64,000 bases of DNA. It comes from Halobacillus litoralis. GTDB taxonomy: Bacteria; Bacillota; Bacilli; Bacillales; Halobacillaceae. The stretch lies in contig NZ_CP026118.1 of assembly GCF_004101865.1 (NCBI RefSeq), positions 3,923,001-3,987,000 of the forward strand, written 5' to 3'. The notes beneath the pieces were generated by a model. The model worked only from the letters and a program-made list of their open reading frames with translations. It searched no databases and was not told where the DNA came from. The translations under genes and the position numbers were made by a program. This document shows positions 35,022 through 45,272 of the stretch, one piece after another. How positions within the stretch are numbered: the first letter of the stretch is position 1; every line of letters starts with the position of its first letter.

Positions 35022-36311
35022 ATGAATTATTCTAACCAGCACACAGACATGAGCGTTTTTGAAAATCTTGAATCATCCGTACGCAGTTATAGCAGAAGTT
35101 TTCCGACGATTTTTGAAAGAGCCAAAGGGCATGAATTGTGGGATGTGAATGGAAATTCCTATATCGACTTTTTTGCAGGTGCCGGAGCTCTGAATTATGG
35201 TCATAATCATTCGGATATGCAGGAAAGGTTGATTGAATACATTCAGAGTGATGGGCTTTTACACAGCCTCGATATGGCGACAGGGCCACGTGCCGAGTTT
35301 CTGCAAACCTTCCATGATGTAATTTTAGAACCGAGGGGGATGGACTATAAAGTCATGTTCCCGGGCCCGACCGGTACGAACACCGTCGAAAGTGCTCTTA
35401 AAATAGCAAGAAAAGTTACCGGACGCGAAAAAGTGGTAACATTTACAAACGCTTTTCACGGCATGACCATCGGTGCACTTTCTGTGACAGGGAACGCATT
35501 CAAGCGTCACGGTGCCGGGATCCCACTTACTTACAGTATGGCTATGCCATACGATGACTATATGGACGGTTTCGACTCGTTGAATTATTTGGAAAAAATG
35601 ATTGAGGATGATGGCAGTGGGATCGATCTGCCTGCCGCTGTCATTTTGGAAACCGTCCAGGGTGAAGGAGGAATCAACGCGGCCAGTTTCGAATGGCTGA
35701 AAAAAGTGGAAGAACTGTGCCAACGCCATGGCATCTTCTTGATCATCGATGATGTCCAGGCGGGATGTGGTCGTACCGGAACATTTTTCAGTTTTGAAAA
35801 GGCAGGAATCAGTCCGGATGTCATTTGCCTCTCCAAATCAATCAGTGGCAGCGGGCTGCCGATGGCTATTACATTGATTAAACCTGATTATGATCAGTGG
35901 GGGCCAGGTGAACATAACGGTACCTTCCGTGGCAATAACTTAGCTTTTGTTACTGCATCAGAAGCATTGAAATACTGGAAATCTGAAGAATTCAGTACAT
36001 CCATACAGAAGAAAAGCGAAATCTTCCAAAAACGTCTGCATGAATTTGTGGAGTCATATCCTGAATTAGAAGGAGAAGTACGCGGGCGCGGGTTGATGCT
36101 GGGAATCGCCAGTGAAAAACCAGGACTTTCTGGTCAGATAGCTGAAAGGGCTTTTGCAGGAGGACTGATTGTCGAAACTTCTGGACCAGACGACGAAGTC
36201 CTGAAATTTCTCCCACCGCTGATTATTGATGAAGAAGCCATTACAAAAGGACTCGACATTATAGAAGATAGTATTAAAGCTGTATTAGGCAAGGAGGAAG
36301 CAAAAGTATGA
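35022..36311 (+). CDS. ectB: diaminobutyrate-2-oxoglutarate transaminase
   Basis: This class III aminotransferase (429 aa) converts aspartate semialdehyde to 2,4-diaminobutyrate, with glutamate as donor. Visible: [59 protein letters not shown] and the PLP lysine in [13 protein letters not shown] (about K272). Ribosome binding site AGGAGG ahead of ATG 35022. Coupled to ectC by ATGA. Confidence 0.96.
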
Positions 36312-36700
36312 AGGTGACCAAACTAGAAGATTTATTAGGTACAGATCGAGAAGTAAAGGATGATAATTGGGCAAGTCGAAGATTCCTTTTGCAAGGAGAC
36401 AAGGTAGGATTCAGTCTTCATGATACGGTGCTTTATGCTGGGACTGAAACGTATATTTGGTATAAGAACCATATCGAAGCAGTTTATTGTATTGAAGGCG
36501 AAGCAGAAATTGAAACAGTGGATGATGGTAAGAAATATCAAATCAAGCCAGGGACTATGTACTGCCTGGATGGTCATGAAAAGCATTACCTGCGGGCAAT
36601 AACCGACTTCCGTGTCGTTTGTGTCTTTAATCCGGCCCTAGTCGGAGATGAAATACACGATGAAGATGGTGTATATAAGCTGCCGGAAGAAAGTAAATAA
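36308..36700 (+). CDS. ectC: L-ectoine synthase
   Basis: This cupin-type enzyme (130 aa, normal size) closes N-acetyl-diaminobutyrate to ectoine. Typical words: [46 protein letters not shown] and [16 protein letters not shown], ending [18 protein letters not shown]. No ectD hydroxylase follows; a terminator closes the operon. Confidence 0.97.
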
Positions 36701-40813: not shown

Positions 40814-41332
40814 ATGCGACAACTTTTTTCAGTCCTTGTATCTCTTGTATTCTTTTTATCTGCCTTTCTTCTATGGCCGAATGTCACACTGGCTACTTCC
40901 TGGGAGTATCCGTTCGTCGTCTGGGATGGGTATATTTATGTGATCACAGATGAGTATGTAGAAGAAGTAAATGAACCAGTCGGCAAAGTAACGCGATATT
41001 CAGATATGCACCAAGACACGGGAAACTTTTCAAATTTCTATAAAAAAGGAACCACCTATTTTTCTATCGTAAAAACGGACACGGATGAAGCCATTGCTAT
41101 TGAAGAGGCAGAGGACCTTTATCGGAAGGCAGTTAGAGAAAAGCCTTATACATATGAAGGGGGAGGAGGGGATAACTCGAATTGGAATAACTTCCTGGGG
41201 GACACTCATGAGGAAACCAAGGAAGAAAGGCATCTAATTGGCGGGTCGATCCTGCTAGGCGTTCTTTTAGCAATTATGGGACTTGTTGGATACTACCTGT
41301 TCAGCAAAAGAAGGGGAAATTCAGCAAAGTAA
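40814..41332 (+). CDS. hypothetical protein with signal peptide and C-terminal TM
   Basis: 172 aa. N-terminal signal-like helix to about residue 27, an extracytoplasmic acidic domain (EYPFVVWDGYIYVITDEYVEEV), a Gly/Asp-rich linker and a TM helix near 143-163 ending with a basic tail. GAGAGGAGCAT before ATG 40814. No family recognised. Confidence 0.65.
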   Translation: MRQLFSVLVSLVFFLSAFLLWPNVTLATSWEYPFVVWDGYIYVITDEYVEEVNEPVGKVTRYSDMHQDTGNFSNFYKKGTTYFSIVKTDTDEAIAIEEAEDLYRKAVREKPYTYEGGGGDNSNWNNFLGDTHEETKEERHLIGGSILLGVLLAIMGLVGYYLFSKRRGNSAK

Positions 41333-41400
41333 TCGAAGTGCAGATGCTTACCATGATAAATTGAAAAGAATCATCAAGATGAAAGGAGGAAACGGCCGAT

Positions 41401-41568
41401 TTGTTGGATAAACTGAAATCTCTTTTTTCGAAAAGACAATGCACCATCTGCAGCCAACAAGCAAAAGCTCCTCAACCTTATTATAACGACAAAGGTGAAC
41501 GGGTATTTGTATGTAAGAAATGTGTACCATATGCGGAGCGACGGGCGATGAGGAAAGAAAAAACATGA
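41401..41568 (+). CDS. small zinc-ribbon-like protein (55 aa)
   Basis: Starts with TTG (41401 or 41404). Cysteine pairs CTIC and CKKC are 29 residues apart, with YYNDKGERVFVCKKCVPYAE. AAAGGAGG (41382-41389) is 11 bases upstream. Small CXXC proteins of this type occur in Bacilli without a known role. Below normal length cut-offs. Confidence 0.6.
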   Translation: MLDKLKSLFSKRQCTICSQQAKAPQPYYNDKGERVFVCKKCVPYAERRAMRKEKT

Positions 41569-41811
41569 AAGGATAGCTTGTGTGAAATCTTCATCCTCAT
41601 TATTCCATAAGTCAATGATATAATAATAGTATAGTTTCCTACTAAAGCTGTCGCTTATCACAGTCTTTATCATGCCAAAGAAAACCTTCTCTTAAAATCC
41701 ATCCCGTTCCTTCAAAAATCCTTTGCTCTTGTGCAAACCATCCATTTTTCAGTAGAGGGCTGTTACAGGAAGTCTGGTTACTTATACTTTTCATTTCGAA
41801 GGAGGCATGCG

Positions 41812-42504
41812 ATGGACAACATTAAAGAAACGGTCTTAGAGGTGATTTTGTCGATCCTGCCCATAACTGTTGTGATTACGATTTTGCAATTCACCCTGGT
41901 CTGGCTCCCTCTCGAGATGTTTCTCCAATTTTTAATTGGAGTACTGATGGTGGGAATCGGTCTGATTCTTTTTTTGTTAGGTGTGAACATCGGTTTACTC
42001 CCAGTTGGTGAGATGATCGGTTCGGCTTTATCCAAAACGAAAATGGTCTGGCTGATTGTATTCTTCGGATTTTTATTGGGTCTTGTGGTAACGATAGCAG
42101 AGCCGGATGTTAGAGTCCTCGCCTCGCAGGTAGACCAAGTTTCCGGTGGAGCGATCCCCCGTGATATTTTAATTATAGCTGTTGCTTTAGGGGTGGGGAT
42201 TTTTGTAGCGATCGCTATGCTCAGAATCATTTTCAACATAAATATCATCTATATATTGGCTGTCGGTTACAGCCTTGTGTTTTTACTTGCTGCGTTCACA
42301 CCTTCCCATTTTGTGCCGATCTCATTTGATTCAGGTGGGGTGACGACAGGTCCGTTGACCGTTCCTTTCATCTTATCTTTAGGAGTAGGGGTAGTCACAG
42401 TCATGAAGGGAAAAACCTCAACAAGCGATGGATTCGGTCTTGTCGCCCTTGCCTCCATCGGCCCGATTTTATCTGTGCTCATCTTAGGGGTGATTTACGG
42501 GTGA
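41812..42504 (+). CDS. DUF1538 membrane protein, first subunit
   Basis: 230 aa, about 7 hydrophobic segments. Motifs shared with the next protein: GVNIGLLPVGEMIG, AEPDVRVLASQVDQVSGG, and FDSGGVTTGPLTVPFILSLG. AAGGAGG 6 bases before ATG 41812. DUF1538 proteins behave as predicted membrane carriers of unknown substrate. The next gene starts by GTG overlapping this stop. Confidence 0.88.
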   Translation: MDNIKETVLEVILSILPITVVITILQFTLVWLPLEMFLQFLIGVLMVGIGLILFLLGVNIGLLPVGEMIGSALSKTKMVWLIVFFGFLLGLVVTIAEPDVRVLASQVDQVSGGAIPRDILIIAVALGVGIFVAIAMLRIIFNINIIYILAVGYSLVFLLAAFTPSHFVPISFDSGGVTTGPLTVPFILSLGVGVVTVMKGKTSTSDGFGLVALASIGPILSVLILGVIYG

Positions 42505-43271
42505 AGATTACAACATTTGAAGGTTTTGGACATGTGTTTCTGGATGTCGCCACCGCTTTGATTCCACTGCTATTTCTATTTCTCATTTTTCAGATCATCT
42601 TTCTTAAACTCCCGCTAAAAAAGCTGCAAGACATCGGAGTCGGTTTCCTTTTGACATTCCTTGGTCTTGCTTTTTTCTTACAAGGAGTACACATCGGCTT
42701 TCTTCCTATAGGGGAAATGATGGGGCAGAAGCTTGGAGCCATCGATCATATTTGGTTGTTAGTTCCTATTGGTTTCGTGCTCGGATTCGTAGCCATCTAC
42801 GCAGAACCAGCAGTCAGCGTTTTGACCCATCAGGTTGAAAAAGTGTCCGGGGGTTACATTCCTCAAAAAGTGCTGCTTTACACACTGAGTATAGGAGTGG
42901 GGCTATCCATCGCTTTATCAATGGTACGGATCATTCTCGGAATCCCTATTTGGTATTTTGTGGTCCCAGGCTACATTATTGCACTGATTATAGTAAAATA
43001 TTCTACGAAAACGTTTACTTCTATCGCCTTCGATTCGGGAGGGGTGGCCACAGGGCCGATGACCGCGACTTTCATATTAGCCTTGTTTGTAGGCATTGCA
43101 TCAGTTACAGATGGACGTGATCCTCTTCTTGATGGCTTCGGTATGGTAGCTCTTGTCGCTTTGTCCCCCATTTTATCAGTCCTCACCTTAGGGATAATTT
43201 ATAGACGGAAGGAGCAGGAGCAATATGAAAAAGACCAAATCCGGACAAAAGCTCATAGTAACGATCGTTAA
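42501..43271 (+). CDS. DUF1538 membrane protein, second subunit
   Basis: 256 aa, about 7 TM segments, with the same motif series as its neighbour (GVHIGFLPIGEMMG, AEPAVSVLTHQVEKVSGG, FDSGGVATGPMTATFILAL). Starts GTG 42501 inside the upstream stop (GTGA). A basic/charged C-terminal tail (RRKEQEQYEKDQ) overlaps the P-II-like gene by 47 bases. Paired half-size homologues suggest a pseudo-symmetric heterodimer. Confidence 0.88.
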   Translation: MKITTFEGFGHVFLDVATALIPLLFLFLIFQIIFLKLPLKKLQDIGVGFLLTFLGLAFFLQGVHIGFLPIGEMMGQKLGAIDHIWLLVPIGFVLGFVAIYAEPAVSVLTHQVEKVSGGYIPQKVLLYTLSIGVGLSIALSMVRIILGIPIWYFVVPGYIIALIIVKYSTKTFTSIAFDSGGVATGPMTATFILALFVGIASVTDGRDPLLDGFGMVALVALSPILSVLTLGIIYRRKEQEQYEKDQIRTKAHSNDR

Positions 43272-43953
43272 AAAAGAAAAAGCGAAAAAAGTTGTTCATG
43301 CCTCTACATTAGCTGGCGCGCAAGGCGGAACCACTTTTTTTGGTAAAGGATTTCGCATCAATGAGAAGAAAAGGTTCTTGGGTATTCCAGTTGAACGGGA
43401 GAGGGAAGTCATATTGACTCTTGTCTCTGATTCCATCTACCACAAGGTGATGAATGCCATCATTGAATCTGTGAAGCTGAATAAACCACAGCATGGGATC
43501 GGGTTTGTCATAGATACGAAAAGAATCAGTGGTATATCTCATATGCTCGGCTTGGGGATTGAAAACGAAGAATATAGTAATGAGAGTGAGATGAAGCAAA
43601 TGGACATCCAAAAGTTTTCCTATGATTTGATTGTAACGATTGTGAATAAAGGAGATTCTGATAAAGTTGTCGATGCTTCTAAGAGTGCAGGAGCGGAAGG
43701 TGGAACGATTATTTCGGGACGGGGGACAGGTATCCACGAGAAAGCTAAGCTGTTCAACATCCTCATTGAACCTGAAAAAGAGGTAATATTGACGCTGATT
43801 ATAAAAGAAAAAACGGAAGCGGTTTTAAAAGCTATCGAAAGCGGAGCCGGGCTGGATCAACCTGGTAAAGGGATTGCGTTCGTGCTGGATGTCGACCAGA
43901 CGGTGGGAATCAATCACCTGTTAAATTCACAAGTCAGTGACGAAATGAAATGA
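43225..43953 (+). CDS. tandem P-II-like signalling protein
   Basis: 242 aa containing two GlnB/P-II-like domains (about 8-115 and 130-240). Each has the KVVxAS...GAxGGT...GxG core and the EREVILTLVSD/EKEVILTLIIKE strand. Normal P-II is about 112 aa, so this is a fused duplication, and the T-loop tyrosine position of classical GlnB is not evident. GAAGGAGCAGGAG before ATG 43225. Its overlap with the second DUF1538 gene suggests it regulates that membrane pair (inference). Confidence 0.85.
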   Translation: MKKTKSGQKLIVTIVKKEKAKKVVHASTLAGAQGGTTFFGKGFRINEKKRFLGIPVEREREVILTLVSDSIYHKVMNAIIESVKLNKPQHGIGFVIDTKRISGISHMLGLGIENEEYSNESEMKQMDIQKFSYDLIVTIVNKGDSDKVVDASKSAGAEGGTIISGRGTGIHEKAKLFNILIEPEKEVILTLIIKEKTEAVLKAIESGAGLDQPGKGIAFVLDVDQTVGINHLLNSQVSDEMK

Positions 43954-43978
43954 CCGGAAAAGGGGAAGTTTGGAGTCA

Positions 43979-44512
43979 ATGAAGATGAGGATACAAATCA
44001 GACGAGAAAGAATAAACGACTGCCATCAGACAGAATCAGTCATCAAGAGAGCTTTTGCAAATGCTGAAATGACCGATCATAAGGAACATGAGTTGGTGGC
44101 AAGGTTAAGATGTTCGGAAGCTTTTGTTCCCGAGCTTTCGTTAGTTGCTGAAAACAATGGTGATGAATTGATCGGACATGTCCTATTGACGAAAGTGACT
44201 ATTGGCATAGGACATAAAACGGAATCTCTAGCCCTTGCGCCTGTTTCTGTTCTTCCTCAATACCAGAAGCAGGGAATCGGTAAGATCCTTATCGACAAAG
44301 CGATAGAAAAGGCGGGGGAGCTCGGCTATACTTCTGTCATCGTGCTTGGACACCCTGAATATTATCATAAGTTCGGTTTCAAGCAAGCTTCTAGTTTCGA
44401 AATACAGCCCCCATTTGAAGCACCACCAGAAGCTTTTATGGCCCTAGAGATTTATGAAGGTTCCCTGCATAATGTTTCGGGAATAGTCAAGTACCCACCC
44501 GAATTCATGTAG
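43979..44512 (+). CDS. GNAT-family N-acetyltransferase
   Basis: About 177 aa: LAPVSVLPQYQKQGIGKILIDKAIEKAGELGYTSVIVLGHPEYYHKFGF, typical of the YhbS-like group. The start may be TTG 43970 or ATG 43979; the ribosome site AAGGGGAAG lies between. Substrate unknown. Confidence 0.85.
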   Translation: MKMRIQIRRERINDCHQTESVIKRAFANAEMTDHKEHELVARLRCSEAFVPELSLVAENNGDELIGHVLLTKVTIGIGHKTESLALAPVSVLPQYQKQGIGKILIDKAIEKAGELGYTSVIVLGHPEYYHKFGFKQASSFEIQPPFEAPPEAFMALEIYEGSLHNVSGIVKYPPEFM

Positions 44513-44582
44513 GTGGCGCACCCCGCTTATACTTAAGGTCTCTTCAGAAAAATCAAAAACAGTCACACCATTAGCAATAAAG

Positions 44583-44618
44583 AAAGATGGAAGTTTGTGA
44601 GCTACTTCCATCTTTTTT
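44583..44618. terminator. bidirectional terminator
   Basis: Stem AAAGATGGAAGT/ACTTCCATCTTT, loop of 9, T-runs both sides, between convergent genes. Confidence 0.85.
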
Positions 44619-44623
44619 ATGTT

Positions 44624-44809
44624 CTATAGATTTTTTGTGTGTTTCGGGTCTGCTGATTTAGTACCTGCACCTTCAGAATCATACATCTCCTTCAGAGCGG
44701 CCGGGTCTTCTTTCTCTATCTCACCATTTGATTTCCTTCTTCTCTTGCGTTCAAAGAAGATGGAAAGGACGATCAAGCCAGCTGCAATCAAAAGCAATAG
44801 CCATATCAT
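44624..44809 (-). CDS. hypothetical small membrane protein
   Basis: 61 aa: N-terminal TM helix (1-20), basic anchor KRRRK, then acidic tail. GGGAGGG lies about 9 bases before the ATG. No family recognised. Confidence 0.6.
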   Translation of the reverse strand: MIWLLLLIAAGLIVLSIFFERKRRRKSNGEIEKEDPAALKEMYDSEGAGTKSADPKHTKNL

Positions 44810-45023: not shown

Positions 45024-45272
45024 TTGGATCGAGTTTATCATCACGGTCACGGTACTTACATTCCGGGCTACGGGTATCACCACGGTCACGGTACTTATGT
45101 TCCTGGCTATGGATACCATCATGGACAAGGGACATATTCCCCAGGCTACGGGGGATACCATCATGGTCAAAGTGGTTATTATCCAGGATATGGGGGATAT
45201 CACCAGGGGCACAGTGGTTACTCTCCTGTGTATGGCGGTTTTCACCATGGACATGGGGGGTATTACGGTTAA
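45024..45272 (+). CDS. Gly/Tyr/His-rich tandem repeat protein
   Basis: 82 aa built of six repeats of about 13-14 residues of the form YHHGxGTYxPGYGG, with drift towards the end (FHHGHGGYYG). The DNA repeats in about 39-42-bp units. Starts TTG 45024 with GAAAGGGG 9 bases upstream; no ATG in frame. Spore-coat or surface structural proteins of Bacilli can have similar composition; histidine content suggests metal binding. Function is not known. Confidence 0.6.
   Translation: MDRVYHHGHGTYIPGYGYHHGHGTYVPGYGYHHGQGTYSPGYGGYHHGQSGYYPGYGGYHQGHSGYSPVYGGFHHGHGGYYG

Follow-up and report, generated by a model that had tools for sequence, protein, structure and literature searches.

A DUF1538 carrier pair with its own double P-II protein in Halobacillus litoralis: a candidate P-II-gated cation/proton antiporter

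Three overlapping genes of Halobacillus litoralis, coding for two DUF1538 membrane proteins and one protein built of two P-II domains, belong to a conserved unit, and a transport system regulated by P-II is therefore the natural reading of them. On balance we think it likely that the unit is a heteromeric DUF1538 cation/proton antiporter equipped with its own P-II regulator, which senses a signal that is probably not ATP/2-oxoglutarate and more probably inhibits than activates. The earlier note on this DNA had arrived at a regulated transport system. This part of it stands because of the conservation of the unit; its statements on the substrate, the distinctiveness of the P-II form and the ligands to try had to be corrected.

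If the usual P-II partner indeed gates DUF1538, the balance of Na+, K+ and pH would come under P-II control outside nitrogen metabolism, and this would reach about a third of the bacteria of the window's phylum and some archaea. The replaced nucleotide residues make the ligand of the P-II protein a directly testable question. The doubled domains and the unequal carrier halves, finally, would be a natural system for studying how a regulator of threefold build is matched to a carrier of two parts.

The three genes and their surroundings

The window, i.e., the whole stretch of 64,000 nucleotides analysed, contains the features compiled in Table 1. Open reading frames, Pfam and a fold model agree on the overlapping set of two DUF1538 genes and a tandem P-II gene that had been read from the letters before. 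The umpA-like gene starts with ATG, with AGGAGG upstream, and the umpB-like gene with GTG; the overlap between them, read from the sequence, is 4 bp, and the start of the P-II gene overlaps the umpB-like gene by 47 bp. Both membrane proteins belong to DUF1538 (258.7 and 259.5 bits against a cut-off of 22.6, each over about the whole 211-position model) and share 47% identity over 198 residues; umpA-like homologues of 230 aa occur in relatives. The umpA-like protein displays the first-half motifs AEPD (AEP at residue 96) and FDSGG at 172, the umpB-like protein the second-half motifs AEPA (AEP at residue 101) and FDSGG at 177, and in addition a charged C-terminal tail. The third protein belongs to the P-II family (48 bits against a cut-off of 25), as does its modelled fold, and its two domains are 43% identical over 115 residues without gaps.

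Table 1. Features of the DUF1538/P-II unit, in window positions
Feature	Position	Strand	Evidence
umpA-like DUF1538 membrane protein, 230 aa	41812-42504	+	Pfam PF07556, E 4.1e-77
umpB-like DUF1538 membrane protein, 256 aa	42501-43271	+	Pfam PF07556, E 2.3e-77
double P-II protein, 242 aa	43225-43953	+	Pfam PF00543, E 1.7e-12, two stretches
N-terminal P-II domain, about residues 1-111	43225-43557	+	without RGxGIHE/IEPEKE loop motif (domain alignment, motif counts)
C-terminal P-II domain, about residues 130-242	43612-43950	+	short T-loop, RGTGIHE...IEPEKE (domain alignment, motif counts)

Purifying selection acts on each of the three genes: between the near relatives L011 and L009, dN/dS is 0.029, 0.022 and 0.033 for the umpA-like, umpB-like and P-II genes, respectively; selection was measured between these two, the comparisons with the window being near saturation at silent sites. 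The host genome of 4.28 Mb has no further DUF1538 match besides the window pair and one other P-II gene, which is of the GlnK type and adjoins an ammonium transporter gene. Genes of ectoine synthesis (EctB, ectoine synthase) lie in the window at 35022-36700 and, together with the named relatives of the carrier given below, suggest a halophilic host from the Bacillaceae or their kin.

A search with Rfam for riboswitches (Na+, c-di-AMP or other) found nothing between 39600 and 45600 of the window. Over 22 loci five matches were listed, none of them a DUF1538 leader: c-di-GMP in L078 and fluoride in L067, at distances of 1.5 and 2.6 kb and both with minus orientation; a T-box in L100, which is upstream but likewise of minus orientation; and, downstream of P-II in L108, two matches to group II introns. 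Since no known riboswitch or other signal turned up, this side offers no hint to the ligand of the P-II protein. The scan of 41250-44700 for promoters and terminators yielded no more sites than shuffled sequence (4 versus 6.2; 3 versus 3.0).

Three neighbours may be mentioned for themselves. A GNAT acetyltransferase gene (43970-44512, plus strand) starts 16 bp past the P-II stop. Four further genomes of the genus (L008, L009, L011, L024) have homologues of 57-60% identity directly behind P-II, and there the gene may share the P-II transcript; many loci end too early in this region. Upstream of the operon, 40814-41332 (plus strand) encodes a small protein that has no Pfam match; homologues of 45-56% identity are likewise found upstream in seven further members of the genus. 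A putative open reading frame at 45024-45272 (plus strand) would encode tandem His/Gly/Tyr-rich repeats, which are YHHGHGTYVPGYG-like.

Linkage of P-II to DUF1538

A survey of DUF1538 neighbourhoods, which the earlier note had proposed as a check, bears out the association: the link is far stronger than the single window shows. When a DUF1538 alignment was scanned against a collection of 84,980 species, P-II was found directly downstream on the same strand in 76 of the 80 loci that were the best of at least 586 confirmed relatives, which is why all counts on these 80 loci lean to relatives of the query. Two of the misses (L051, L082) are loci that stop at a contig edge; the other two (L053, L062) are genuine, as they contain the pair without a linked P-II and are not near contig ends. 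In L062 the next gene is a YitT gene, which we take as chance and not as a partner. The closest named relatives of the carrier, among the matches listed, are those of Virgibacillus, Oceanobacillus and Lentibacillus.

The same picture emerged from genome samples. In a set of 61 genomes, the host included, 17 have DUF1538, and in 16 of these a P-II of the same type follows; the exception, G045, has the pair without linked P-II. G045 and the genomes of L053 and L062 have a single P-II match each, with a GlnK-type score. Thus, the carrier can do without P-II, as these three cases exemplify. Of 249 genomes sampled from the window's phylum, 84 have DUF1538, and P-II lies no more than 1.5 kb downstream on the same strand in at least 82 of 85 tabulated clusters from 72 genomes. 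This table has one DUF1538 place per cluster and selected P-II rows, among the matches listed; as GlnK-type and second-domain P-II rows were left out, the linkage count can only be lowered thereby. G000, G087, G116 and G167 were left out of it, and G114, G138, G153, G178, G187, G208, G217 and G285 are without a listed DUF1538 place. Two of the three misses look like contig breaks: for cluster C87 of G213 because C151 of the same genome begins inside a DUF1538 gene, and for C228 of G143 because the 3' end of the DUF1538 gene is at the contig edge; another DUF1538 piece of G143 adjoins the double P-II of that genome. The third, G278, is genuine; its double P-II sits at C77:40412-41026, and the only DUF1538 gene found there is on C36.

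As a control, the 866 open reading frames of at least 90 aa from the same 80 loci were grouped all against all. DUF1538 came out in 75 loci, P-II, by this stricter grouping, in 63, and the next family in 9 of 80, so that among these best 80 of 586 no third recurrent neighbour exceeds that number. A Na_H_Exchanger gene with TrkA_N was considered as a recurrent partner and rejected, being present in only 4 of these best 80 of 586 loci; it was seen near the DUF1538 unit in L054 (Balneolaceae) and in L070 and L075 (methanogens).

The linkage is by no means confined to relatives of the host. Besides Bacillota, it is found in methanogenic archaea (L059, L068, L070, L075), in Balneolaceae (L049, L054), in Desulfovibrio and its kin (L060, L095) and on plasmids of the alphaproteobacteria Methylocystis and Chelativorans, which here stand in for the neighbourhood in Pseudomonadota and Halomonas. 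The alphaproteobacterial plasmids of L114 and L115, one of them typed as conjugative, have the DUF1538 pair with a single P-II; on the Chelativorans plasmid the first DUF1538 gene is annotated short. Our literature search, with most subscription papers outside its reach, found no paper linking DUF1538 to P-II. The adjacency itself is already visible in databases, because public annotation names the neighbour 'P-II family nitrogen regulator'.

Carrier halves, P-II domains and what they may sense

The DUF1538 family is not entirely without a tested function. UmpA and UmpB of Halomonas zhaodongensis are reported to form a membrane heterodimer that catalyses Na+(Li+,K+)/H+ antiport between pH 6.5 and 9.5, and umpA and umpB, with no other genes, rescue E. 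coli KNabc; the paper of 2017 presents itself as the first account of a function for DUF1538 (PMC5484666). In its main text neither 'PII' nor 'P-II' occurs (PMC5484666). UmpAB homologues have since been cited as a salt adaptation in cable bacteria (PMC12093952, PMC10030654), and UmpAB is the only DUF1538 pair with a tested function that our literature search found. To speak of a substrate of unknown kind, as was done before, accordingly goes too far for the family; it retains some justification for the window pair, which scores far below the cut-offs of the UmpA and UmpB equivalogs (NCBIfam NF041627, 125 versus 490 bits; NF041628, 125.5 versus 500 bits), and with such scores its substrate may differ.

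The two carrier halves are similar and yet consistently different. Of the acidic motifs, AEP is kept by 70 first halves and by every second half of the 77 loci that have both, and an FDxGG-like one by 72 first and 73 second halves. EPD is found in 67 first halves and in no second half; EPA in 76 second halves and in no first one. This difference runs parallel to that between first and second P-II domains described below. The structure model of a fused relative, L110, is of good quality (pLDDT 87.2, pTM 0.86), and Foldseek gave no convincing match to a solved structure in the PDB; without PDB matches an antiporter-like fold gains no independent support, and we make no claim to a new fold, since the repeat inspection was confined to the matches that Foldseek itself listed.

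AlphaFold2 models the P-II protein as two beta-alpha-beta-beta-alpha-beta domains (mean pLDDT 80.3) joined by a linker of low confidence (pLDDT below 50 at residues 111-129). The top three Foldseek matches in the PDB are GlnK1 chains, with 2j9e as the best (E 3.3e-6); the lower ranks include some unrelated proteins, whose TM-scores are poor.

For the ligand site, 162 linked P-II domains from 90 loci (72 first, 72 second and 18 single ones) were aligned with the host GlnK as reference. The loci comprise 75 of the 76 linked ones of the 80-locus scan, i.e., all except L084 with its two double P-II genes, and a further 15 from relatives; where a cluster had a second locus this was left out, as were L017 and the loci from L114 on. 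The full-length T-loop of classical GlnB/GlnK is not found in the linked domains: the loop (GlnK positions 36-57) is shorter by five residues in 122 and by six in 38, the outliers being one domain with four and one with nine residues less. The residues of classical P-II proteins in contact with nucleotides or 2-oxoglutarate include Thr29, Gln39, Lys58, Gly87, Lys90, Phe92, Arg101 and Arg103 (PMC8395244). Lys90 and Gln39 occur in none of the 162 domains, Arg101 in two (it is Gly in 148) and Arg103 in 11; Thr29 is retained in 140, Phe92 in 148, Lys58 in 137 and Gly87 in 111. The pocket is thus altered rather than erased, and the numbers for Lys58 and Gly87 make a complete loss of the classical site doubtful, with the proviso that the alignment around the loop is uncertain. 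The window domains (N/C) have Ile/Ile, Gly/Gly and Ser/Asn at positions 90, 101 and 103, so that the classical ATP/ADP contacts are missing there; position 58, the assignment of which depends on how the shortened loop is aligned, is Arg in the N domain and Lys in the C domain. His replaces Gln39 in 45 of the 72 second domains and in 16 of the 18 single ones. What is new here is the shortened T-loop of DUF1538-linked P-II domains together with the absence of Lys90 and Gln39 from all 162 and of Arg101 from 160 of them.

Of the ligands that had been suggested, ATP, ADP and 2-oxoglutarate are thereby less likely than usual, as their binding residues are missing, with Lys58 mostly kept. In our view the signal is probably not ATP/2-oxoglutarate, since other residues stand in place of Lys90 and Arg101, which belong to the classical ATP/ADP pocket, and of Gln39, which is part of the 2-oxoglutarate/Mg site; the kept Lys58, which in classical P-II proteins binds 2-oxoglutarate by a salt bridge (PMC8395244, PMC6908673), leaves some room for it. 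That residue is also an argument for a P-II protein that still reads the nitrogen status, the carrier then moving NH4+ as a K+-like ion or coupling nitrogen supply to ion balance. The window protein is, after all, a Pfam P-II, and K+ is also among the ions reported for UmpAB (PMC5484666). Yet the substitutions at positions 90, 39 and 101, the finding that no third family, nitrogen-related or other, recurs in over 9 of the best 80 of 586 loci (the smaller families being named in part) and the separate glnK beside the ammonium transporter gene of the host make this explanation unlikely.

First and second domains differ in the loop. The pattern RGxG(I/V)(H/N) is present in 49 of 72 second and 14 of 18 single domains and in one of 72 first domains; an IEPEKE-like pattern in 63 of 72 second, 17 of 18 single and 4 of 72 first domains. 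In a FastTree tree of the domains the printed clades never mix first and second ones; the best single split separates 119 of 144 domains, several supports being low.

The double form, for which the earlier note had chosen the word distinctive, turned out to be the commonest P-II layout: of the 80 loci (best of 586), 45 encode a fused double protein, 13 have two neighbouring P-II genes, 18 a single domain and 4 no P-II. Though unlike classical P-II, it is therefore ordinary for its kind. The carrier is a separate pair in 42 of these best 80 of 586 loci, a fusion of about 500 aa in 35 and partial in 3. The description of the membrane proteins as half-size hence fits the two separate proteins of the window, but is relative, the fused form being common as well. 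A few loci deviate. In L017 (G015, about 2139-2757) the reading frame of umpB is broken, while those of umpA and the double P-II remain open, the picture of a decaying carrier with an intact regulator. In L084 (6710-8227) two double P-II genes stand one after the other behind a fused DUF1538 carrier. L139 (G197) and contig C120 of G163 each have two clusters of a DUF1538 pair in tandem, and each cluster has its own P-II.

P-II layout tracks carrier layout: with a linked P-II, the single form accompanies none of 34 fused carriers versus 16 of 39 separate pairs (Fisher p 7.6e-6, kinship ignored). This would suit a ligand-free P-II that serves the carrier as an assembly or stability subunit, a structural lid so to speak, and so would the replaced nucleotide-binding residues and the loop motif that is mostly missing from first domains. 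We nevertheless consider such a lid quite improbable: two genes suffice for UmpAB in E. coli (PMC5484666), three genomes keep the pair without linked P-II, and the IEPEKE-like motif is preserved in second domains as expected of a working site. A P-II that is merely co-transcribed and acts on some other enzyme or regulator, for which the double P-II of G278 apart from DUF1538 could be quoted, is very improbable in view of a link to DUF1538 that spans bacteria and archaea and of the missing third family (9 of the best 80 of 586 loci at most).

Proposed mechanism and known systems

For the P-II-gated antiporter we propose the following sequence of events. UmpA-like and UmpB-like subunits would exchange Na+, K+ or Li+ for H+. 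The P-II domains would assemble as in other P-II proteins and reside on the cytoplasmic face of the carrier, where binding of a small ligand would cause their shortened T-loops (RGxGIHE...IEPEKE in the second domain) to alter or block the ion flux. This ligand would be an ion or another nucleotide instead of the ATP/2-oxoglutarate read-out of GlnB/GlnK, and its effect would be inhibitory rather than activating. A brake is likelier than a required part, because UmpAB works from two genes and some genomes lack a linked P-II. Contact and gating, the class of the ligand, the sign of the regulation, the oligomeric state and the substrate of the window pair are what we infer in this scheme.

More tentatively, one might think of a separate branch of P-II proteins, shared by bacteria and archaea, that abandoned the ATP/2-oxoglutarate pocket and became direct sensors, be it of an ion, of pH or of a nucleotide such as c-di-AMP, gating a single carrier family. 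In the doubled form, two unlike domains would then cap two unlike carrier halves, and the result would be an asymmetric gate with a working loop in the second domain only. We regard this as somewhat less likely than not.

How does the unit compare with known systems? With UmpAB of Halomonas zhaodongensis it has in common two overlapping genes for homologous DUF1538 membrane proteins of the same Pfam family (PMC5484666). Its proteins differ by their scores of about 125 bits, the NCBIfam thresholds being 490 and 500. PstA, the c-di-AMP protein of Gram-positive bacteria, is an example of a PII-like fold with a non-classical ligand (PMC4316997, PMC4475381). Unlike PstA, the window protein is assigned by Pfam to PF00543 alone at E <= 0.001, and not to the c-di-AMP receptor family, which has a separate Pfam entry.

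SbtB-SbtA resembles the unit in that a dedicated PII-like gene and the gene of a secondary carrier, a Na+-dependent one for bicarbonate, form one operon; the ligands of SbtB are cAMP/AMP, and a C-terminal CGPxGC hairpin is found in some SbtB proteins (PMC8352866). The window P-II, in contrast, is devoid of any cysteine and its partner, DUF1538, is of another sequence family, so that it does not qualify as SbtB. PII-NG is a P-II clade clustered with a proton/cation antiporter, CzcABC, and proposed to be a metal sensor (PMC7726332); it is, however, proteobacterial and goes with the CzcABC pump, whereas the window unit has DUF1538 as partner and a doubled P-II. GlnK-AmtB, finally, likewise has a P-II fold encoded beside a membrane carrier, and there the T-loop of GlnK inserts into AmtB (PMC8352866). 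The window type differs from it by a T-loop that is five or six residues shorter, the replacement of Lys90, Arg101 and Gln39, the fusion of two domains and the other carrier. By the logic of GlnK-AmtB, SbtB-SbtA and PII-NG, the P-II protein would gate the DUF1538 antiporter from the cytoplasm.
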